64,000 nt of DNA from Viridothelium virens (lineage: Eukaryota; Ascomycota; Dothideomycetes; Trypetheliales; Trypetheliaceae). A program made the translations under genes and the position numbers. The stretch is from NCBI GenBank assembly GCA_010094025.1, contig ML991817.1, forward strand, positions 1 to 64,000, given 5' to 3'. This document shows, in pieces, positions 11,643 through 64,000 of the stretch. Below the pieces are notes generated by a model, which saw nothing but the letters and a program-made list of their open reading frames with translations, was not told where the DNA came from and searched no databases. Position 1 is the stretch's first letter. Each line of letters begins with the position of its first letter.

Positions 11643-12369
11643 TGCTGTACTGGGTGGCTTTTCAACCGCGTGAGCGTTCTTTTAGCTTTGTACTACGGAC
11701 TAATAGGTTTTGGGCGACTGATGAGAATAGCTTGCCACGACAAACTCAAGATAGAGCGCTTTACCACGCACCCTCTCATGGACTGCAAGGACATCTCGAA
11801 CTACTCCATCCTAAGACTAGACCTCCTTTGTTGAATCATGAGCATGGCTCTATTCATGCGAATTATCCCCTGACAGCTCTTACATCTATTTGAAGAAGCA
11901 TTGGGCTAAAATGATGCGGTCTCCTTATGCATTCGCCCTACAGTGGCATTTTTCTCAACACTAGGACGACCCTGATCATCTTATGTCAGCCATTCAATCC
12001 ATGATCAGAGAAACGCTCTGCGTGTTCGCCGCGGGAGGTTGCGGAAATTTGCCTCGCGTCTGCGTCTATTGACTTAGAAGCGTGGTCCTATCTTGAGGAT
12101 CATTTTACTGAATGATCTTGCTAGATTTGACTTGACTCAATATGTATATGAAACACTACAAACTATGAGAAAGATGGGACCGATAGCAGTCCCTCTCTGC
12201 AGCAGTGAGTTTTCCTTTTGAATATAGAAGAATGTCTGAAAAATATAGCGGAACTAGCGTACACATTCAGGCCAGCTACCATCATACGGTGCATCAATAT
12301 AGGTAAAGCATGTAGAGAGACAGTCTCCCATGAAAGAATTGGATGCAGGGTTCATCCTACCGGATGGGC
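11643..12369. other. Intergenic, no gene seen
   Basis: Lies between the convergent esterase gene and the LPxEIRN gene. No credible open frame or repeat. Confidence 0.6.
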
Positions 12370-46477: not shown

Positions 46478-47901
46478 ATGCATTTCCTCACCCATCATGA
46501 TGTCTACACCGCGTGTACTCCTAGTTTGCACGAAATCGACATTGAGTCCAAGAGGGTAAGTCTGCAGACGCTCTTCCGTACAGCACACCAAGGGCTGAGT
46601 ATGCCGAGCAGGATCGATTGCGTGTCAATCTTCCCTCATACGACAGGGTTTCACGCTCATCAGATGATGCCTTATTCTGGTTGACTGCCACTGGTATTTT
46701 TCTTGAAAAATTGGTCTCGTACGGTGGCTACAGTAGCGATGAGCAGCGGAAGACGTTTGAATTCTATCGCAACTTCGTGGTGCCAAGTCTTGGGCCCAGG
46801 CCAACATCAGGAGGACATCCCGCCACTTGGAAGAGTTTCATGACTGACGATTTTACGCCGTTGGAGTTCAGTTGGAATTGGGGCAGTGGGAACGAATTGC
46901 CTGAGAGAAGGGTACGCTTCAGTATTGAGGCCATCGGATACCAAGCTGGAAGCTCCGTCGATCCGTGGAACATGACGACCACGCTCCAATTGATTCAGCG
47001 TCTGGGAGGAGGGATGAACAAGCTCGACTTGCAATGGTTCCATCAGCTTGCAGGCAAGCTACTTCCGTTCACCGACTCCAGGAGATCGGGCACACCAGAG
47101 CCATCTCCAGTACAAGCGAGCATTTCCACCATGTTCTTGGCTTTCGAGCTTGGTAAAGGTGAGCCTCTGGTGAAGGTGTATATGATGCCTAAAGCTCGAT
47201 CTTTTGTATCGAAGCGCCCAAGTCAGCAGCTTTTAATAGACACCATGGAGCAATTTGCTCAGGATACCGAATGGGTGTCTCTGGGGGAACTGAGCAAGGA
47301 TTTGAGAAAATGGACAGAAACAAAATTTCTCGACCCGTTCATGATCGCGTTTGACTGCGTTGTACCAACAAAATCACGAATGAAGATCTATGTCAGATCT
47401 TCCGATACTTCATTCGCAAGCGTCGAGAAGATTATGAGCTTGTATGAAGATCCCTCGACGATTGGAAATGGACTAGGAGAGCTTCGCAGACTGTGGGAAA
47501 TCTTGTTTAATGAAGACGAGCCATTTGATTCAATGAGACAGCTCCCGTCGGTAGAGCACGAGACCTCCGGGATACTCTTTTACATAGAAGCGCATCCAAC
47601 GTCGAGGCGCAAAAACGTGAAGGTGTACTTACCGGTGAAGCATTACGCCAAGAACGACTGGAATACCGCTCAAGGCCTGGCCTCATTTATTCGTCAGCGA
47701 AACAGCTGTCAGTGCGACCTCGCAGATCGCTACCTTGGCGCTCTCACCCAGGCATGCAGAGACCGAAACCTTGAGGAGACACGCGGTGTACAGACGTACA
47801 TTGCCTGCAAGATCGAGAATGACTCCTTGAGCATTACATCATACCTGAGCCCGGATATCTATGCGGAACTGCAAAGGGACATGCGGCTTCAAAATTGTTG
47901 A
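46478..47901 (+). CDS. DMATS-type aromatic (indole) prenyltransferase
   Basis: Protein of 455 residues. Exon 1 is 46478-46555, exon 2 is 46612-47901, and the 56-nt intron (GTAAGT...GAGCAG) joins DIESKR to DRLRVNLPSYDR in phase. Family features: FWLTATGIFLEKLVSYGGY (N-terminal helix), FYRNFVVPSLGPRP, PLEFSWNWGSG with the aromatic-substrate Glu, VRFSIEAIG, LVKVYMMPKA, MKIYVRS and KNVKVYLPVKHYAKND. The spaced Lys/Arg/Tyr residues of these beta strands bind the diphosphate. Such enzymes put a dimethylallyl group on tryptophan, tyrosine or indole compounds without a DDxxD motif. Neighbours are two P450s, but no NRPS or PKS is nearby, so a simple amino acid or an imported substrate is possible. The first exon is less certain than the rest. 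Confidence 0.9.
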
Positions 47902-53864: not shown

Positions 53865-55652
53865 ATGCTGGATCAACTTCACGCATACCCGGTGCAGCAC
53901 CAGACACTGAGTGCCATCCTCGTGAGCGCGCTGGTGCTGGTGGTCGCGTACTTCCTCGCACTGCCCCGCGAACACGCCCCCCCGATACTTATTGATGTGC
54001 CGCTCGTCGACATCTCCCAAGTCAAGAAAGGGCAGGTCGAGCTCGGTGGTTTGCAAGATGCGCTTGCGATCAACTGCGAGAAGGTCGAAAGCTGGCACAC
54101 GTATCGATTGAGATGATGATCAGTCCTTGGCTGACCATCTTCTACAGTACCGCGGCCAGCTCTGGCAGCTGAAGACGCGGCACGGCACGATCGTGGTCCT
54201 GCCTGAACGCTTCATCAGCGAGCTATGCTACCTCCCGGAGGAGTTCGTCTCCCTTGAGGCAAAGAACACGGATGTAAGGGCAGAGCGCGCTATCTATGGA
54301 ACCAAGATTGGGCTGCCATGGGATTGCAGAGCCCAACTGACGCACCCGCTAGCGATTCTTTACACAATACACGCGCTTGACCCCAACATCTATTGGGCAC
54401 GACCCTGCTCACCTGCTCCACTGCGTCAAGCACGACCTGACGCGAAATATCGGCAGCCTGATGAAGGAGATCTCTGAGGAGACCGAGTACGCCTTCAACA
54501 ACAGCCTTGGCGAATGCGATGGTAAGTTAAACGTGCACTTACAGGCAGATAGAGTGCCGTATACGCAAAACTCGAGATAGATTCCGTTCGCTGACCAACA
54601 TCGCCACCACCACTCCAGACTGGAGGGAGATTGCTCTCGGCAATGTCCTCACGCGCGCTGTCGCTCTCGTCTCTGGCCGCGTCTTCGCCGGCCCCGAACT
54701 CAACCGCAACCCTGACTACCTCCAGTCCATCATTGACTTCACTTTCGTCGCCTTCAAGGCGATCGAGGCCATCTCACGCTACCCGGCCTGGCTGCGTCCG
54801 CTGGCCCAGTACTGGGTGGAGGAAGTGCGAGGCATTAAGCGCTCGCTGGACCAGATGGAGAAGATCCTGGCAAGCATCGTGCCCGAGCGGCTGCGACTCA
54901 TCGCCGAGGGCAAGGCGCCTAGCAATTTGACGACATGGCACATTAACAGCGTGCCTGCGGAGAAGAAGAACGACCTGACAGTCCACGCGCACACGCAGCT
55001 GGTGGTGTCGACGGCGGCTATACACAACACCACTATGCTGACTACGCACATTATCTTCGACCTGCTGGCGCGGCCGGAGTACCTTGGTCCTATCCGCGAC
55101 GAAATAACGGAGGTGTTATCGCACGAGAATGAGAGCTACTTGACCAAGTCCAGCATGCCTAAGCTACGTAAGCTAGACAGCTTCATGAAGGAGGCGCAGC
55201 GCATCCACCCGCTGGGCCTACTGACGTTCGAGCGTAAGGTCATGCAGGATATCACTCTGCACGATGGCACGGTGCTACCTAAGGGCTGCTACTTCGCTGT
55301 TCCTGCATACTTCATGGCCATGGACCCGGAGCGCTGGGGCAACCCAGGAGAGTTCGACGGCAACCGCTTCCTCAAGCTGCGCGGCGACAACAGCGTTGGC
55401 GGCAAGTATACCTTCATCGAGACCGGCATTGGCCAGCATGACCTGATCGCCTTCGGGCATGGTCCCCACGCATGCCCGGGCCGCTTCTTCCTCAACAACG
55501 AGATAAAGGTTATCTTGTCGTATCTGCTGCTGAACTACGAAATGAAGCTGCTCGATGGCGAGGGCCGCCCCGCGAACCTAGTATCTGCCGACGGTATAGG
55601 ACCAGCTTATAGCAAGAAGATCCTAATACGCCGCCGAAAGTATACAGCCTAA
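53865..55652 (+). CDS. Cytochrome P450 monooxygenase with HACPGRFF haem loop
   Basis: Four exons: 53865-54083, 54148-54273, 54353-54521, 54619-55652, totalling 515 residues; introns 64, 79 and 97 nt. An N-terminal anchor (about 15-33) is present. FTQYTRLTPTSIGHDP and KHDLTRNIGSL form the B/C region; CDDWREIALGNVLTRAVALVSGRVF follows. The I-helix is VVSTAAIHNTTML, ExxR is FMKEAQRIHP, and the haem loop is FGHGPHACPGRFFLNNEIK with Cys457. This pattern is that of the fungal ent-kaurene-oxidase/CYP68-like group, which often oxidises terpenoid or meroterpenoid skeletons. The gene is GC-rich, in contrast with the AT-rich block before it. A relative with the same haem signature lies at the right window edge. 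Confidence 0.9.
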
Positions 55653-56132
55653 CAGCTCTAGGGGAAAAAAAAGCTACGTATCTCGAGGCCTAGGCATACG
55701 AGGTAGGCGAGGAAGTTATCTACCATATCCGTGAACGAGGTTGCTTAGATCGATGATGCGTGGCAAGCATGTATGCCATAGATATATGTTGGTCCATCTT
55801 CTCGACCAGACTGGCCTTTCATCGGTCCCCGATGTCCAAAAGCATAATTAGCTAGCAATATATTAGGAATACAGCTAGAAGTGACACTTCGGCGCAAATT
55901 GTACACGCGTACCATGGTCTACCAGGGCCTGACCTACTTCACTTCCTCTTCACTGGTGCTTTCACAAAGTCGGTGTGTCAATTCCCGCTTCCTTTCTCCG
56001 CAGCGCGAACTACCTAGCTCGCCTCCATTCGTGATAAATAACGCTTGAAGGACTAATTCAAGTACAACATGCACAGTGAACAGCTGTCGCCATCAATACC
56101 AGGGGCTCTTTTCGAAACCTTTGTGGTTGGAC
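55653..56132. other. Intergenic between convergent cluster genes
   Basis: No gene, repeat or conserved motif seen between the P450 and the FkbM gene. Confidence 0.55.
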
Positions 56133-56903
56133 CTAACCAGCAATTACATCACGGTGACCAATGACCATAAACATCTTCCCTTCGCTTGGTGACCACGGCG
56201 GACTTTCTGTCCTTAGGCGGAAGCCTTTAGATCTCAACAGACTTTCTAAAGCATCCAGTCGTCCCTCGCGTAGATCGCAGACCTCCACTACCACGTTGGA
56301 AACCAGAGCCCAGTGGACTTCCTCAAGACCACGTAGAGTCTCCAGCTCGACACCCTCGACGTCGACCTTGAGCAGATCGATGTTCTTAAGATCTTTGCGC
56401 CCATTAAGAAAGTGTGACAAAGGACGAACGCGTACAGGTATCTCCTGTAAGGTAGAGTACATCCTCTCTGCTGAGTCGGCCCAGTCGTGGCTCAGTTCGC
56501 GGAAGACCTCTCTCACTATCTCTTTCTCCTCAGGTACGAGCGTCGAATTTCCTGGAACAGTCGGATAGAAGGTGAATTTCTGAGTGGTGTCTTCCGCCCC
56601 CAATGCACACTCGTGCAATTCGACACCTTTGAGTTTGTGGAGCTTGACATTTTCGCTCAGCATCTCGAAGGTCTCTGGGGCTGGCTCGAATGCTAGAATC
56701 GTCGAGGAGGGATATTTCCTCTTCATGTAGAGAGTAAACATGCCGACATTCGCGCCCGCGTCAATGATGAAGGCATTTTCGGGAATTTTAGCAACATCGT
56801 AGGCATGGTCCTGGAATATCTCCCGGTAAAAGAAATGAGTTTCCTCGACGCCTCCGGCGTAAGCTGAGAAGCCGGGTGCAAACTCTACTAACTGCTTCCC
56901 CAT
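56133..56903 (-). CDS. FkbM-family SAM-dependent methyltransferase
   Basis: Single-exon protein of 256 residues. The ATG at 56903 is chosen; the frame upstream has no ATG. The Rossmann fold shows motif I NAFIIDAGANVGMFTLYMK (about 44-62), then STILAFEPAPETFEML, ELHECALGA, and NIDLLKVDVEGVELETLRGL, the conserved KxDxEGxE segment of FkbM proteins. FkbM-type enzymes methylate hydroxyl groups of polyketides, sugars and similar substrates and are better known from bacteria. Here the gene shares a 465-bp divergent promoter with the ABBA prenyltransferase, which suggests that both act on one product. Substrate unknown. Confidence 0.88.
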   Translation of the reverse strand: MGKQLVEFAPGFSAYAGGVEETHFFYREIFQDHAYDVAKIPENAFIIDAGANVGMFTLYMKRKYPSSTILAFEPAPETFEMLSENVKLHKLKGVELHECALGAEDTTQKFTFYPTVPGNSTLVPEEKEIVREVFRELSHDWADSAERMYSTLQEIPVRVRPLSHFLNGRKDLKNIDLLKVDVEGVELETLRGLEEVHWALVSNVVVEVCDLREGRLDALESLLRSKGFRLRTESPPWSPSEGKMFMVIGHRDVIAG

Positions 56904-57368
56904 TGTTACACTTGAAAACAGGCACAAGTCAATTGATGAAGTTGTGGTGTAGATCTATAATGGTGTGCCCATTTCAGAAGGGCGTAGGGTGTAGCCGGAT
57001 TTCGACGGCGGATCTGGGTCTTACAGTAACGAGCTAACGGACACTACTCCACGCCTAAACGAGCGGGATTTGTCCGGCCACATTAGTTTGCTTAGCGGAT
57101 GCAAGGTAGAGTACTCCGTCCGGTAGAGTACATGAAGGCGCGCAAGGGTATGCAGAACGAAAGCCAGCTAAGGGATTCAACTCCGCATATGTAGGTGAGA
57201 TGCTAGGATAAGCGTCTGAGAAAGAGGTAGGTTGGGTCTGGGTGCGTTTGAACCCTGACCTTCTCAATCGTGCACCAAGTCCTCTCGATACCTCTGCAAA
57301 CACGTTGTTTCACCTGTCGTGATCTATTCTACTACATCTTCTGAAATATCAGGACGCCCCGATAGAGT
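56904..57368. promoter_or_regulatory. Divergent promoter of FkbM gene and ABBA prenyltransferase
   Basis: 465 bases between the two ATG codons. A TACTCCGTC variant of the TACGGAGTA motif lies near 57112. I see no clear binding site for a Zn2Cys6 regulator. Confidence 0.45.
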
Positions 57369-58274
57369 ATGGCCGCCAGCGCCGAAAAATTCGACCGCTC
57401 TACCTTTCAGTCCGAGCTCTCCACGCTCTGCCACTCGCTCGACGCGCCGTACTCAAGTAAGGTGACAGAGCAGATTCTAGAAGCTTTCGACGAGTACCTT
57501 GATGATTCATATGTCTGGCTACGCTGCACGAGCAAACCTGCGGATGTGGTCAATTTTCGCCTCGCTTTCCATGGCAAACGGGTCGATACTACAGCAATCT
57601 TAGCCAGTGCCGGTTGGATTGGTATCGACGACGAACTCGCGAAGATGGTTAGGTCATGGAGTTCACAGGAGGACACAGAGCAATGGTGCGACTTTGACCC
57701 TAGCCGAGGAATAGCAAAGAGCTGGATCTACTTCCGTCGCCTGCAACCCATCCAGGAGATCCTGTGTACGCATGGCTTGCCAGCCTCCGTGGCTTCCCGA
57801 CTTCCCGACCTCCAGGCTGCGGGTCTCGAACACGTGAACTATGCGGCGGTTGACTACGCTAATCGAAGTATGAACGTCTACTTCTTGCTTCCAGGAGGCT
57901 TGACTGCCGAACGAGCTGCGAGATACGTCGCTTTGGCCGGATCAACGCCTCTATCTGAAGCAGATGTTCAAATCATTAGCGATAATACGCACCCGATGCA
58001 AACCTTTGGCGTCACAATCGTTCCTGAAACGGGCCATATTCCCCGAGTAGCGTTCTACGCGCCTGTCAAGAATGCCGAAAACTTTCCTTCGCTCAAAAAT
58101 GAGCGTCTGAGGAAGTTTTTCTCCGAGCACCCTTCGCATGACCCTCAGAAGCTACACATCCTTTCTTGGTCATATGGTGCTGGCGACTCGAAGACGTATA
58201 TGAAAGGGGAGGCGAGCTATGCTGGGTACTCAGAAGAACTCTCGAGAGATATGTTCCTTCGCTGGATAGAGTAG
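57369..58274 (+). CDS. ABBA aromatic prenyltransferase, NphB/CloQ (Orf2) family
   Basis: Single-exon protein of 301 residues from the ATG at 57369, the normal size for this family. Visible features: an N-terminal helix FDRSTFQSELSTLCHSLDAPYS, VWLRCTSKPADVVNFRL, KSWIYFRRLQPIQEIL, VNYAAVDYANRSMNVYFLLPGG, QTFGVTIVPETGHIPRVAFYAPV, and a tail LHILSWSYGAGDSKTYMKGEASYAGY. These correspond to the beta-strand blocks of NphB/CloQ, with Lys/Arg/Tyr residues for diphosphate binding and no DDxxD. The fold is ABBA, as in DMATS, but the family is separate and mainly bacterial. A few fungal members have been described that prenylate dihydroxynaphthalenes. It likely adds a prenyl group to a phenolic or naphthalene-type aromatic made by enzymes outside this window. 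Confidence 0.88.
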   Translation: MAASAEKFDRSTFQSELSTLCHSLDAPYSSKVTEQILEAFDEYLDDSYVWLRCTSKPADVVNFRLAFHGKRVDTTAILASAGWIGIDDELAKMVRSWSSQEDTEQWCDFDPSRGIAKSWIYFRRLQPIQEILCTHGLPASVASRLPDLQAAGLEHVNYAAVDYANRSMNVYFLLPGGLTAERAARYVALAGSTPLSEADVQIISDNTHPMQTFGVTIVPETGHIPRVAFYAPVKNAENFPSLKNERLRKFFSEHPSHDPQKLHILSWSYGAGDSKTYMKGEASYAGYSEELSRDMFLRWIE

Positions 58275-58872
58275 AGATACGAAGAAGATGGATACAGATT
58301 AATGAGGTAGATAGATGATTGGTTCTTTATCTCAAGGGCGAAGCATGCGGACACCCCTAGCAGGGGGCGGAGTCACCTCGCAAAAGCCGCCGGTCGACAA
58401 GTCCTTCTCACTTTGCATGACAGCGTAGATTCCGGTCATCCGATGCATCGGACTGGATAAATCAACTTCATTTTGGCTTTCCTTTGGTAGCCGTACTGAC
58501 CAGCTTGACTGATCAAAACTGGCCATGATCAACAGCATCAAGGAGCTAGACCATTAATAGCACTGCGTCTAAGGCTGGGGCAAAGACTCTGTCACGGTCC
58601 CTAACTCCTTCGAGTCATTTTCAACTTTGCGGCCGCTTATGTCGATGAGCTTATATATTTTATTAGATAGATAGGCGTACGTGAAGAGCGATAGACAATA
58701 TGATGTGCGCTTAAAACAGGGCTCGGATTCGGATTTGGTATAAGGGTGCGCTTCAAATAGGGCTTAGACTTAGATTTAGTCGATGTTAATTCCTCGAAAG
58801 TATCCCTTTATATTAATTAGTATGTAGTGACCACCTGCTTTCAAAGCTTATACTATTCGTAATCCAAGAACG
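58275..58872. other. Intergenic between convergent cluster genes
   Basis: No intact gene. An AT-rich part from about 58650 to 58870 includes the short tandem repeat listed separately. Confidence 0.6.
58705..58785. repeat. Two 41-base direct repeats
   Basis: Copies start with GTGCGCTT at 58705 and 58746. They share GTGCGCTTNAAANAGGGCT and then the phrase GANTTNGATTT. Most differences are C/T or G/A changes, consistent with decay by RIP. Confidence 0.6.
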
Positions 58873-60138
58873 TTAGACTTCTAGTAAACCTTTCCTATAT
58901 GTTTTATCAGGTCGTGGTGCTTTAACGTATGCGATTGCATCCCTTGTTTGCCTGAAGTTCTCGCACCCATAGCGGAATAGCTCGGCGAATGTTCCCTTCT
59001 TACAGTCATTGCCGTCTTGATCCTCATCCCAAAGCTCTCCCAACTCCTGGTCGTGGGTTAAAGCCTTTCCACGAAAGACCTTTTGCATACTCGATCGGGA
59101 CAGCAGACGCCAAACTAATCGCTCAGCATGTCCATAGTTTTCGCCTGTTGTGTTACCATCAACCGGCAGTGCGAAGAGATCAAACATCCGCTGGCCGCAA
59201 CCTTTGAATCCTAGCGTTGTCTCAGCCCCCCAGGTCTCTTCCAAACCGTCCCAGAGGAGCACCTTGCTCGCCCAGTAGTCGACAGCACTAAAGCCATCAC
59301 CCGCATCTTCGAGGAGGCAGAGGCGGTTCCAACACATGACCTGGGTGACGTATTCGTCCACGATTGCAGCATCTTGGCTAATACCCCACTGGAATTTCTG
59401 TGCTCGCTCGAGGTCCAATGGCTGCTCAGCGACAATCTTCATCAAAGGGCTTTTCATGAGGCCAGCGGAGTTGGTGTGGCCTTCCCACAGATGGCAGAAA
59501 AGTTTGTGCCTGATTAAAGTCATCGTCAGTGGAGACTTCCTTGATGCTGATTTACGGGAGAGCAATTACCATCGATGGATGAATGGGTTTGCCTTCCTGG
59601 CAGCTACAAAGTGATTGCCAATATGAGTGCCATACACCCATGGAGCCGCGATCTCGTAGGGAGTGCTTGGGTCCTCCAGCTTCGCCCAACAAATGCGATC
59701 GATACTTCGAATTAACGGGATGCCCACGTCTAGGAAGATGCCCCCATGTGCATACAAGCAAGCCCCACGGAGCATATCGGCACTGTGGGGCCCTACGTAA
59801 GGGCCATCCATCGTTCCGCATACGAATGACTCTGGTAAAACCGCCTCAGGAACATATTTCAGAAAGTAGTTGTTCGAGTCTGTAGTGCTGTCCAGTACGC
59901 GAACAGTCCAACCATCGTAGACGTGCATGCGGACCCAGGCACAGATATTTCTCTGACACCATGGTGGCATAGAACGTATCCCCGAATGCCAGAAGGCCCA
60001 GATGTTCTTTTCCGATGTCACCGAGCGGAAGGTACTGAGGCTCTCGAGGATTTGTTCATCGCTTCGTTCATCTCGAGCCTCGACAAACGAAAGTTGGTCC
60101 CGGTATGCGGCAGGGATCTCAAATTTCTGAGGCGACAT
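58873..60138 (-). CDS. Caps_synth-type (GT32-like) glycosyltransferase
   Basis: Protein of 401 residues. Exon 1 is 59570-60138, exon 2 is 58873-59509, and the 60-nt intron (GTAATT...ATCAG) completes the Trp codon of IHRWHKLFCH. The ATG at 60138 is the first in frame. Features: NIWAFWHSGIRSMPPWCQRN (about 45-64), WTVRVLD, ADMLRGACLYAHGGIFLDVG (about 120-139), where the usual DxD of GT32 enzymes is DVG as in capsule-synthesis-type fungal proteins, and PYEIAAPWVYGTHIGNHFVAARK. No signal anchor is seen. It probably transfers a sugar to the cluster product, though a wall-glycan role is possible. A RIP-like piece of a second copy lies at 53629-53700. Confidence 0.85.
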
Positions 60139-60484
60139 GAGAGTCAACGATTCAGCCAGCGGAAGAGATCTCGGACCGGCAATGCAACGTGAGCTGAGTC
60201 GAGAGCATTGGCCGCTTATGCAGGAATGTTCGCAAGCTCTTGTACTAAGAAGAAAAAAAAAAAAAATATGCAGGAGAGTCTACCTATTCCTGATGATCCT
60301 TCGGGTTACCCCTCCAAATGGCTCGTCATCTGCTGCAAGCAACGACTCAGCTCAAGACCCACAGTGCAGAAGACTCCTGCTCTTGTCCTCCGCTGCAGTC
60401 AGCATCCTAGCATCGACTGGAACAGCGCAGGAGGCTGCTTGTGCACCAAGTATTCGTGCCTTACTCCCATCTACGTCTACCATT

Positions 60485-60722
60485 TGTTAAGACTCATGCG
60501 CTTGCTCATCGAGCCAAACCACCCAAAAAGGTATCAATGCCTAGAACTGGCATTGGCAAGCGTAACTTAATATATAAAGTCTTTGACAGTGTGAGAGCAC
60601 GAAGTGCACGAGCAGAGAGCGAAGTAGAGAGAAGGATGGTTGGTGTAGCTAGCTAGTGCGGGATGAGCTATGTACGTGCACGGAGTGCCTGCCACCTGCA
60701 TGCTTAGCTCCTGCTCTCAACA
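60485..60722 (-). mobile_element. Ty1/copia-like LTR remnant
   Basis: A 238-base unit with TG...CA ends: on the minus strand it starts TGTTGAGA and ends TCTTAACA, a near-perfect short inverted pair. Just outside its start on the minus strand lies the purine-rich AGAAAGGGGATAT, which looks like the polypurine tract before a 3' LTR. A TATATA-containing stretch lies inside. No matching target duplication was found. A partial second copy is at 61084-61170. The element is a broken fossil with no coding region left; family assignment rests on end structure only. Confidence 0.45.
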
Positions 60723-60963
60723 ATATCCCCTTTCTAAGGGTGCTCGCCCTCGAGCACAAACTTGAGACCTTATCATACTAAGCTACTAAGCTACCTCCCA
60801 GCAGCGTATAAACTACCCCGCCTAGCCCGCATAGCGGAGTTATCTTCTACCATTCAGGTAGTGCTTAGCTGAACCTAGGCATGCGATAGGGCTTCTCACC
60901 CGAGGTTTGACCGAAACCCCGCAGACTCTTGAGACCTAGCTAATATCGGGCCTAGGGGAGTTT

Positions 60964-61080
60964 TAGGTATCCCTCGCACTGTTGTTGAGGGCTGCCGCGC
61001 AAGAACCACTTTTCTATGGGCGACGGCACGCGATTTGAAGCCCGTGCGCGGCAGCCCCACCAGTGCGAGGGAGGTACCTA
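60964..61080. mobile_element. MITE-like element with about 36-base inverted ends
   Basis: The left end reads TAGGTATCCCTCGCACTG and the right end, reverse-complemented, TAGGTACCTCCCTCGCACTG. Farther in, both arms share GGGCTGCCGCGCA. Total length is 117 bases with a small loop and no coding capacity. The ends and size suggest a non-autonomous DNA transposon, perhaps mobilised by a Tc1/mariner-type or other transposase elsewhere. It sits only three bases from the partial LTR copy at 61084. Confidence 0.65.
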
Positions 61081-61083
61081 CTG

Positions 61084-61170
61084 CTTGCTCATCGAGCCAA
61101 ACAACCCAAAAAGGTATCAACGCCTAAAACTGGCATTGGCAAGCGTAACTCAATATATAAGTCTTTGACA
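61084..61170. repeat. Second copy of the 88-base LTR segment
   Basis: Matches 60501-60588 with few differences and in the same orientation (shared CTTGCTCATCGAGCCAAAC, GGTATCAA, CTGGCATTGGCAAGCGTAAC, AATATATAA and GTCTTTGACA). It lies 54 bases upstream of the P450 start and contributes a TATA-like element to its promoter region. Confidence 0.75.
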
Positions 61171-61224
61171 CCATTGCTTTTGCATTCTCGGATTGTAGAT
61201 TTGTTGTGGTCTCAGGCGGTCGAC

Positions 61225-62970
61225 ATGACCGGTACTGCAACTACCCAGTATGTGCTCACCTCTAACTCGTTTGCAAGGCTTGCCATTTCTTTCACAGTCC
61301 TCATCGCCACCTCATACTTTGGACGCATCTTGTATGATGCCTTCCTCGGCCCGCTCAGCAAATTTCCAGGCCCCAAACTTCGAGCAGTGAGCAAGGTCCC
61401 TGGGCTGTATACCACAATCACCGGCCGGGATGCCTTTGTTCGCTCAGAACTCCACGAGAAATATGGACCCGTTGTCCGTGTCAATCCCACGGAGCTATCA
61501 TTCAACGGCGGTGCCGAGGCTTGGGAAGCAATATACAGCTTTAAGAAGCCAAAGCCGCTTCGAGATCCCCAATTCTATGCTGTTGGCGTCAACGGCTGTC
61601 CAGATGTGGTCACCGCCGATGAAGAAAACCACTCAAGGCAACGGAAAATCCTGTCTACTGGTTTTAGTGACCAAGCGATGAAGGGATACGAACCACTGTT
61701 GAAGTCATGGGCTCAGAAGATGATCACGGAGATGTCGGAGCTGGCCGGCAAGGGCGGCAAAGTCGATATGCTCAAGTATCTCAACTGCACCACGTTCGAT
61801 ATCATGGGTGAGTGCTATATACGCTCGAAGAACAGGTCAGGTCACAGTCTCATTGTTTTCAGGGGACCTAGCGTTCGGCGAAGGCTTGGGAATGCTCGAA
61901 GACGGCGAGCTCTCGCCGTGGGTGCAAACTATCTTCGCTGGATTCAAAGCTGGGACGTTTTGGCGCTGTGTGATGCAGTACTCGGCGATTACTAGCTGGT
62001 TGGTCGGGAGGCTCCTTTTCAACAGCAAGCAGGTCCGTGTGAAGCAGTGGGAGAACTTCGAGTATTGTCAGAGTCGCATGGATAAAAGGCTTGCTCGCGA
62101 ACCTGCGCATTCTGATCTTTGGTCGAGGATACGGTCCAAGTCCGATAGCGCTGAGAATTTAAGTCGAGATGAATACCATTCGAATGCTGTCACGTTCATG
62201 GTGGCTGGTGAGCGGGCTCGAGTCTGGGCTGTGCGCTTTTCATTACTTGCTGACCGCGTAGTACAGGGACCGAGACTACTGCTACGGCCCTCAGTGGTTT
62301 GATCTACTTTCTCCACCAGGCCGACAACAGGCATGCTCTGAACAAGCTGAAAGCAGAAGTCCGCGGCAAGTTCTCCAGCTTTGGAGACACCACCTTGGAG
62401 AGCCTGGCCCGTTTAGAGTACATGCACGCTATCATCCAGGAAGGACTCCGGATGTACCCACCCGTAGGTTTTCTTAAACTCCAACAGCAGCGGGAATTGA
62501 CCAAATGCCGTAGGCTCCGAGTCAACTTCCACGACGAACACCTTCCGGAGGTATGATAATCTACGGCCAATTCATACCGGGCAATATCACTGTCGACGTA
62601 CATCCCTTGGCTACATTCAAGTCGCCGACACACTTCAAGAACCCGCAGAAATTTCGACCAGAGCGGTGGCTTGGTGATCCTGAGTATAAGGATGATCATT
62701 TGGATGCAGTGGAGCCATTCTCGTATGGTCCTCAGAACTGTTTGGGCAAAGTCGGATAATAATCTACCTTTTGAGTATGGAAAGCGTGCTGACATATATA
62801 TCTAGAGCCTTGCCTGGCATGAAATGCGACTGCTCCTGGCAGCTCTCATCCTCAGCTTCGACATTGAACCTGCAGCCGAAACCAAAGATTGGATCGATCA
62901 GAAGATCTACGTGTTGTGGGAGAAGAAGCCACTCATGTGCGCACTGAGACGAGTCTCCGAATCTCCCTAG
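61225..62970 (+). CDS. Cytochrome P450 monooxygenase, CYP65/isotrichodermin-hydroxylase-like
   Basis: Five exons: 61225-61807, 61863-62207, 62267-62463, 62514-62750, 62806-62970, totalling 508 residues; all introns are 50-59 nt. An N-terminal anchor (about 15-35) and PLSKFPGPKLRAVSKVP are followed by HEKYGPVVRVNPTELSF and ENHSRQRKILSTGFSDQAM. The I-helix AGTETTATALSG is canonical, ExxR lies in QEGLRMYPP, PERW in FRPERWLGD, and the haem loop is FSYGPQNCLGKSLAWHEMR with Cys451. The usual Arg two residues before the Cys is Gln. The pattern fits the isotrichodermin C-15 hydroxylase group common in fungal metabolite clusters. It ends five bases from the stop of the convergent P450. Confidence 0.9.
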
Positions 62971-62975
62971 ATAGG

Positions 62976-64000
62976 TCAAGAGTTTCCTTCGCGCTTTCGA
63001 ATACGCATCCTAGCACTGGGATCGGCAAGTCGAACGATCTCGTGCTTGATGTCTTGGGGTCGATCATCACCAGGGACGTACTCGAAGTCGTACTCCAAGA
63101 GTAAAATGCATAGCGCAATCTTTATTTCATTCGAAGCAAAGAATCGACCTGGGCAGGCATGCTCGCCTTGTTCGGTCTCGTCAGCAGTTGTAGTAAAAGT
63201 CTCGGTGGGAAGCAACACTACCGAATCCAAAGCCCATTTGATCAGCCGAAGGAGTGCTGAATTGGTGTTGATTTTGTTCTCCTGGTCGTTCTCGTAGTTT
63301 TGCGAATCGCCTCATGTCGAACGTTTCGGCATTCGGGAAGTGCTCCGAAGAGTGAGCCCAGTCGTTCATGACCATCAATGTGCTACCCTTGGGAATCACA
63401 GTGCCGTCGGACAGTGTGAGTGGAGCTCGAGCAAAGCGTAACATGGAGGCTAGAAAAAACGGATCAGTGCTTGTTTCGTGGGCAGAAGTGCGAGGATCCT
63501 TACTGGCGAGTAGGTCCCTCACTCTCTGACATTCCCTCATGAAGCTGTCCAGCAACCTCATATCCTGCAGTGCTTGCTTTGTCCATCCACTATCGTCAAG
63601 AACGCGGCGGCAATCTTCGCGCAGTGGTTCGATCAGCTCTGGCATGTCACACAGCTGCAGCAGGCACATCGTCATCGTTTCGGAGCTCAGGTGAATAGCG
63701 GCGAGACTGAAAGAAAGCTGGGCAGCAGCGTAGTCTATTTTTCGCCCTCTTGCACATTCCACCATCCAGCCGATCGCATCAGAGGCTTTTGACGATCCCT
63801 CGCTCTCTGAAGAGCTAGCCTGCATCTGAGCTTTCCTCCGATCGACGACTGGCTGGATGAGTACCTGTGCTCTCTTGTAATAATGCCTTGCTTGTGTGCA
63901 ATTTTTGGAAAACCAATGGATGATAGGCCTAGCCAGTGCATGCTGTGAACGCAGCTCGCTAATGGCCTCGAAGCTGCTATAGGTGTAGTTCTTGGTGATA
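62976..64000 (-). CDS. Cytochrome P450 monooxygenase (5' part beyond window)
   Basis: The C-terminal two thirds of a P450; the frame is open to the window edge. Exons seen: 63504-64000 (partial), 63222-63449, 62976-63166, with introns of 54 and 55 nt; the 54-nt intron is stop-free in frame. The I-helix is LSFSLAAIHLSSETM, ExxR is FMRECQR, followed by TSMLRFARAPLTLSDGTVIPKG, and the haem loop is FGFGGEHACPGRFFASNEIK. The AAIH and HACPGRFF signatures match the P450 at 53865-55652, so the two are family relatives at opposite ends of the visible cluster. The cluster therefore continues to the right of this window. Confidence 0.87.

Follow-up and report, generated by a model that had tools for sequence, protein, structure and literature searches.

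A candidate meroterpenoid gene cluster of Viridothelium virens with a CloQ-like prenyltransferase and a free-standing terpene cyclase homolog

Eight neighboring genes at and just beyond the right end of a 64-kb window from Viridothelium virens (Trypetheliales), a lichen-forming fungus, most likely form one biosynthetic cluster that extends from position 53,865 to about 67,617. The window, i.e., the whole stretch of DNA analyzed, comprises bases 1 to 64000 of a 242,954-bp contig (ML991817.1; C47 below) in a 30.7-Mb genome assembly. C47 coordinates run on from the window numbering and are used for genes to the right of position 64000. The genes have intact frames and matches to known families, and a core group of them shares a neighborhood in other fungi. 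Two members of this core encode an Orf2/CloQ-family ABBA prenyltransferase (PT) and a free-standing homolog of a terpene cyclase (TC) domain, TCbeta, in which catalytic residues are kept. With a little less than even likelihood, the cluster makes a cyclized prenyl-aromatic meroterpenoid, probably a methylated glycoside, whose acceptor would be prenylated before cyclization.

The prenyltransferase and the cyclase homolog

The PT gene occupies positions 57369 to 58274 on the + strand as a single exon (301 aa). Its frame (57366 to 58274) matches PF11468 with 215.7 bits (cut-off, 22) over profile positions 1 to 281 of 287, and searches of the 30.7-Mb genome gave no other match to PF11468. A preliminary description of the window had assigned the enzyme to an NphB/Orf2 type. 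The Orf2 family assignment holds, but in a PDB sequence search the closest structures were those of CloQ (three sequences; E values of 8e-46 to 8e-45), followed by AmbP1, an "aromatic prenyltransferase" (5YNT), AmbP3, and a "Prenyltransferase" (4EE6); none of the seven distinct PDB sequences matching at 1e-3 carries the NphB label. PT would transfer a prenyl group to an aromatic acceptor; the fungal Orf2-family prenyltransferases are not known to have an assigned natural acceptor. In PMC3227686, CloQ, NphB, and the Ptf enzymes are grouped in one phenol/phenazine family, of which five fungal members were known in 2011, and all eleven members tested by that year are described as C-prenylating aromatics. 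According to PMC7839719, the NDxxD metal motif of NphB is missing from CloQ, which needs no divalent cations; passages of PMC4684245 gave no information on the CloQ residues of interest. FgPT1 of Fusarium globosum, considered as a described relative of PT, was set aside as a DMATS-type enzyme (PMC11990136).

The TCbeta gene (C47 positions 66519 to 67617, + strand, four exons, 312 aa) lies wholly outside the window and starts 2.5 kb beyond its right edge. Within the reach of the genome searches, it occurs once, as does the UbiA-like gene beside it. The absence of a terpene cyclase, stated in the preliminary description, thus holds within the window and is not supported just beyond it, where this homolog of class II cyclases stands. 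The nearest solved relative is the TC domain of AstC (E value of 5e-38), and the protein aligns from residue 9 onward to that domain only. The HAD-like N-terminal half is not present, and the interval to the UbiA-like gene (65949 to 66518) measures 570 bp; ten TCbeta homologs are 243 to 358 aa long. The residues of AstC described as essential (D271, D273, T274, N324, and Y361) are all five kept, aligning with D80, D82, T83, N133, and Y169 of TCbeta. The DNDTN motif is identical in each of the nine homologs covering it among ten aligned, these proteins being 65 to 78% identical to the first. The pyrophosphate sensor of AstC, K451, is replaced by N, and the neighboring R452 by G. The exon junctions were placed by comparison with related proteins (P0037 and P0039), which also support one intron (C47 positions 66778 to 66828) of the GC-AG type (donor, GCGAGT). 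The resulting model reads without a stop, and a broken gene was rejected on this ground.

TCbeta might still be catalytically dead or repurposed, for example, as a chaperone or isomerase working with PT, so that the pathway would have no cyclase step. A cyclase function of its family is a prediction from sequence, and two family members, labeled PF28380 solely in protein-search listings, gave no match in a Pfam search. Given the five catalytic residues kept and the invariance of DNDTN, we consider this explanation highly improbable.

Relatives in other fungi were collected from three protein searches, two of them with chimeric queries, and 155 proteins were compared by BLAST with the eight gene models; 39 of these (relatives of the FkbM, glycosyltransferase, or P450-2 proteins at 31 to 52%) were left out of the neighborhood comparison. 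Neighborhood was judged from locus tags, which alone are direct evidence, and from contig sizes, an equal listed "longest contig" size serving as a proxy for the same contig. PT and TCbeta homologs carry adjacent tags in Trypethelium subeluteriae (Q9165_006772/006771) and Periconia macrospinosa (DM02DRAFT_569563/569562), and consecutive tags in Zasmidium cellare cover PT (PRZ48_012120), TCbeta (012121), P450-3 (012122), and P450-2 (012123). By the proxy, seven of ten TCbeta homologs share a contig size with a PT homolog; the other three are found on a 4,114-bp record with a UbiA-like homolog, on a 2,172-bp record, and in Periconia digitata. Conversely, 7 of the 25 PT homologs found share a contig size with a TCbeta homolog, many others being on short records.

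Gene complement, conservation, and flanks

All six genes listed in the preliminary description were found in place by a Pfam search of the window frames. Their spliced models contain no internal stops and match other fungal proteins over nearly their full length (BLAST). P450-1 (53865 to 55652, + strand, 515 aa; exons 53865 to 54083, 54148 to 54273, 54353 to 54521, and 54619 to 55652) has a frame at 54531 to 55652 that matches Pfam p450 with 124 bits, and the protein is 92% identical to P. macrospinosa P0118 over 512 of 515 residues. The FkbM-family methyltransferase gene (56133 to 56903, - strand, a single exon, 256 aa) is supported by PF05050 (68.5 bits for the frame at 56133 to 56954) and by TIGR01444, which scores 114.7 bits (cut-off, 37.7) on P0026, a protein 100% identical to the model. 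The Caps_synth-type glycosyltransferase (GT) gene (58873 to 60138, - strand, 401 aa) is a splice model of two exons (59570 to 60138 and 58873 to 59509). The frame of its first exon (59566 to 60279) matches PF05704 with 28.8 bits, barely above the cut-off of 24.5, and the second exon by itself gives no Pfam match; the whole model is 92% identical to P. macrospinosa P0027 over 401 of 401 residues. P450-2 (61225 to 62970, + strand, 508 aa) and P450-3 (62976 to 64699, - strand, 496 aa) are five-exon splice models supported by Pfam P450 matches to the frames at 61039 to 61995 and 63181 to 63999, respectively; P450-2 is 87% identical to P. digitata P0117 over 506 of 508 residues, and P450-3 is 91% identical to P. 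macrospinosa P0121 over 496 of 496. The 5' part of P450-3 lies beyond the right edge of the window at 64000. As the preliminary description had anticipated, the cluster is open on that side: the contig continues with the rest of P450-3, followed by the UbiA-like and TCbeta genes.

Between the GT and P450-2 genes, a 78-nt direct repeat occurs at 60500 to 60577 and 61083 to 61160 (95% identical). Just two copies were found across the 30.7-Mb genome, and the repeat is possibly a duplicated promoter piece.

The UbiA-like gene (C47 positions 65010 to 65948, - strand, two exons, 293 aa) is also wholly outside the window. Its model is identical to P0028, V. virens EV356DRAFT_253807, which is named "Prenyltransferase vviA" in UniRef. 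PF01040 matches the protein weakly (16.7 bits, under the cut-off of 34.2; the best scored relative, P0042, reaches 22.9), and a weak match with an E value of up to 1 was obtained for five of six aligned UbiA-like proteins, including that of V. virens. DxxDxxxD motifs are present at both expected sites (IDVMDKAAD and CDVRDIQED). PMC9835599 gives motif rules that separate UbiA-type terpene synthases from transferases. In the six aligned proteins, motif position 1 is I rather than N, position 5 is D rather than G or A, and the residue preceding the second motif is C, S, or A rather than Q. Because the motifs depart from those rules for terpene synthases, the protein looks more like a transferase than like a UbiA-type terpene synthase, and a role as an Fma-TC-type cyclase is disfavored. 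The UniRef name, taken by itself, agrees with a transferase. A structure model (predicted local distance difference test score, 43.5) was too poor for use and did not confirm a multihelix membrane fold, and a profile of the protein gave no match in the PDB.

In P. macrospinosa, the PT, GT, TCbeta, P450-1, and P450-3 homologs are 89 to 92% identical to the V. virens proteins, and all are listed with a 98,693-bp contig, which argues that the eight-gene grouping is not due to chance. In P. digitata, homologs of the FkbM, TCbeta, UbiA-like, GT, P450-2, and P450-3 proteins are on one 5,846,744-bp record, a length that says little about distance. No PT homolog under the P. digitata name is among the PT search matches listed; the cluster may occur there in a natural form that lacks the ABBA enzyme, or an annotation may be missing. 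In another Z. cellare record (ATCC 36951), PT, P450-2, and P450-3 are all listed with a contig of 184,638 bp, and the FkbM and P450-3 homologs of Lophiostoma macrostomum are both listed with a 177,439-bp contig. The FkbM homologs of Z. cellare (P0043 and P0048) are on other scaffolds. From locus tags and shared contig sizes, the core of the cluster looks like PT, TCbeta, P450-2, and P450-3, and the variable part like GT, the UbiA-like gene, FkbM, and P450-1. Orthologs scattered among unrelated neighbors, the outcome that the preliminary description had named as speaking against a cluster, were thus not found for the core (Z. cellare 012120 to 012123) and were found partly at its edge, where FkbM lies elsewhere.

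Identities of 89 to 92% between a Trypetheliales fungus and P. macrospinosa are high for accessory enzymes. Horizontal transfer is one possible explanation.

Core enzymes were sought with five Pfam families only, in six-frame, intron-blind searches made exon by exon, so that match counts are lower bounds; frames on the right side were read to C47 position 93500. None of the five families has a match on C47, the genome totals being 75 for ketoacyl synthase (PF00109), 24 for the condensation domain (PF00668), 8 for class I terpene synthase (Terpene_syn_C_2, PF19086), 1 for chalcone synthase (PF00195), and 5, on contigs C2 and C25, for Pyr4-type cyclase (PF25129). Within the scope of these searches, the preliminary statement that no polyketide synthase (PKS) or nonribosomal peptide synthetase is present is supported for the contig. 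The 75 ketoacyl synthase matches are spread over many contigs; they were counted exon-wise, and the number of genes is lower. In a genome this rich in PKSs, it is notable that C47 has no match.

To the right of TCbeta, about 5 kb contains four frames of 141 to 193 aa, none with a Pfam match. The genes that follow beyond this gap seem ordinary; they encode a SET-domain protein, GTP cyclohydrolase II, a GH47 protein, and an APP1 phosphatase. On the left, a second small prenyltransferase cluster is located at window positions 41173 to 47901. It includes a DMATS-type gene (46546 to 47901, + strand; PF11991, 290.8 bits), a P450 gene (44115 to 45668, - strand), and a P450 frame (41173 to 41523, - strand) with more, unassigned frames up to 42935. 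Between this locus and the main cluster lie an M20 peptidase and a frame of 491 aa that Pfam does not match.

Proposed pathway and alternatives

In the pathway that we propose, an aromatic acceptor would be drawn from general (perhaps shikimate) metabolism rather than from a cluster-made polyketide and would be prenylated by the soluble CloQ-like PT, by the UbiA-like protein acting as a transferase, or by both. The DxDT aspartate of TCbeta would protonate the chain's terminal double bond and fold the chain into rings, as in MstE with farnesyl- or geranylgeranyl-dihydroxybenzoate. P450-2, P450-3, and P450-1 may oxidize the cyclized product, the FkbM enzyme may methylate it, and the GT may attach a sugar. 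Chain length and step order, like the acceptor and the rest of this chemistry, are inferred.

Prenylation before cyclization is preferred because TCbeta lacks K451 and because the protein that most regularly accompanies it is an aromatic prenyltransferase. We hold this preference weakly, since three points weigh against it: S450 of AstC is kept in TCbeta, K314 is matched by arginine in TCbeta and in all 10 aligned homologs, and the nearest relatives use farnesyl diphosphate (FPP). The same points favor the reverse order, in which TCbeta would turn FPP into a drimane-type diphosphate that serves as the donor for transfer to the acceptor by PT or the UbiA-like protein. AstC, the nearest solved relative, is itself a drim-8-ene-11-yl pyrophosphate synthase, and the isolated TC domains of AstC and AacA alone yield a cyclic pyrophosphate from FPP (PMC13244436). 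The HAD half is absent from TCbeta, and with no HAD phosphatase a cyclic diphosphate would survive as a donor. Set against this order are the changes at K451 and R452, and fungal ABBA enzymes are not known to use a cyclic donor. We regard cyclization of FPP as the first step as unlikely, though a serious contender.

The preliminary description had proposed that the six genes could prenylate, oxidize, methylate, and glycosylate an aromatic core supplied from outside. In a tailoring-only version of this proposal, a short prenyl group would be placed on the core with no terpene cyclization, and the TCbeta and UbiA-like genes would belong to another pathway. Six genes of the proposed kinds are indeed present, and CloQ and NphB move C5 or C10 units, too short for drimane-type rings (PMC7839719). 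That TCbeta is the closest and most regular neighbor of PT elsewhere is hard to explain if it comes from another pathway, and we give this proposal little credence.

A terpene glycoside is also improbable. Here, the core would be a terpenoid with no aromatic acceptor, and GT, FkbM, and PT would make a methylated, O-prenylated sugar. The model is fusicoccin, in which O-prenyl glucose is formed by PaPT. The FkbM, PT, and GT genes are contiguous at 56133 to 60138, and the TCbeta and UbiA-like genes could provide the terpene core. On the other side stand the C-prenylation of aromatics by all eleven family members tested by 2011 (PMC3227686), the finding that TCbeta accompanies PT more regularly than GT or any other gene does, and the absence of terpene synthase motifs from the UbiA-like protein.

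Comparison with known systems

Among the open-licence PMC papers listed in literature searches, we found no described fungal pathway with this gene combination and no paper describing a vvi cluster, and none of seven papers that name V. virens contains vviA. To that extent the cluster is unassigned, as the preliminary description had it, but the label is doubtful because UniRef names the UbiA-like gene "Prenyltransferase vviA." The name shows that the locus was named, and there is a real chance that the cluster has already been described somewhere.

In PMC10882540, the fungal polyketide meroterpenoid plan consists of a PKS, a UbiA-like prenyltransferase, an epoxidase, and a Pyr4-type cyclase; in the mfm cluster, a DMATS-type enzyme farnesylates in place of UbiA. 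Genome mining for Pyr4 clusters with a PKS was done in the same study; such a search would overlook clusters that lack both. The pair of PT and TCbeta offers a compact search key for such clusters. We tentatively suggest, at odds well short of even, that fungi build cyclized prenyl-aromatics with a soluble module of a CloQ-like ABBA PT and a free-standing TCbeta, using neither a PKS nor a Pyr4-type cyclase. The HAD-fused cyclase AsDMS has been proposed to derive from a stand-alone domain (PMC12365925), and, if the module exists, that domain would have an extant relative in the TCbeta family. A HAD-free TCbeta also makes it testable whether cyclization specificity needs the HAD half and whether stand-alone cyclases gave rise to the HAD-fused ones.

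PT resembles CloQ, its nearest solved chain; the fungal Ptf enzymes (PtfAt, PtfBf, and PtfSc) are linked to it via the family description and not by sequence. CloQ takes an acceptor of the 4-hydroxyphenylpyruvate type and is not known to have a cyclase partner. With PT, a partner reaction would be suggested for a CloQ-like enzyme of a fungus. MstE, the type II cyclase of merosterolic acid biosynthesis in Scytonema, is a free-standing protein whose partner prenyltransferase is encoded apart from it. MstE was solved with bound farnesyl or geranylgeranyl dihydroxybenzoate (PDB titles 6SBC and 6SBE), and TCbeta would be a cyclase of this type. TCbeta differs from the HAD-like cyclases AstC, AacA, and AsDMS (drimenol synthase) in having no HAD half, in standing alone beside prenyltransferase genes, and in not keeping K451 and R452. 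With the polyketide meroterpenoid clusters (anditomin, and mfm with its DMATS and Pyr4), the V. virens cluster would share prenyl transfer followed by proton-initiated cyclization, as proposed here. Unlike those clusters, with their PKS, UbiA, flavin-dependent monooxygenase, and Pyr4-type enzymes, it has no PKS or Pyr4-type match on its contig, its cyclase homolog is TCbeta, and its PT is of the Orf2 type rather than the DMATS type.

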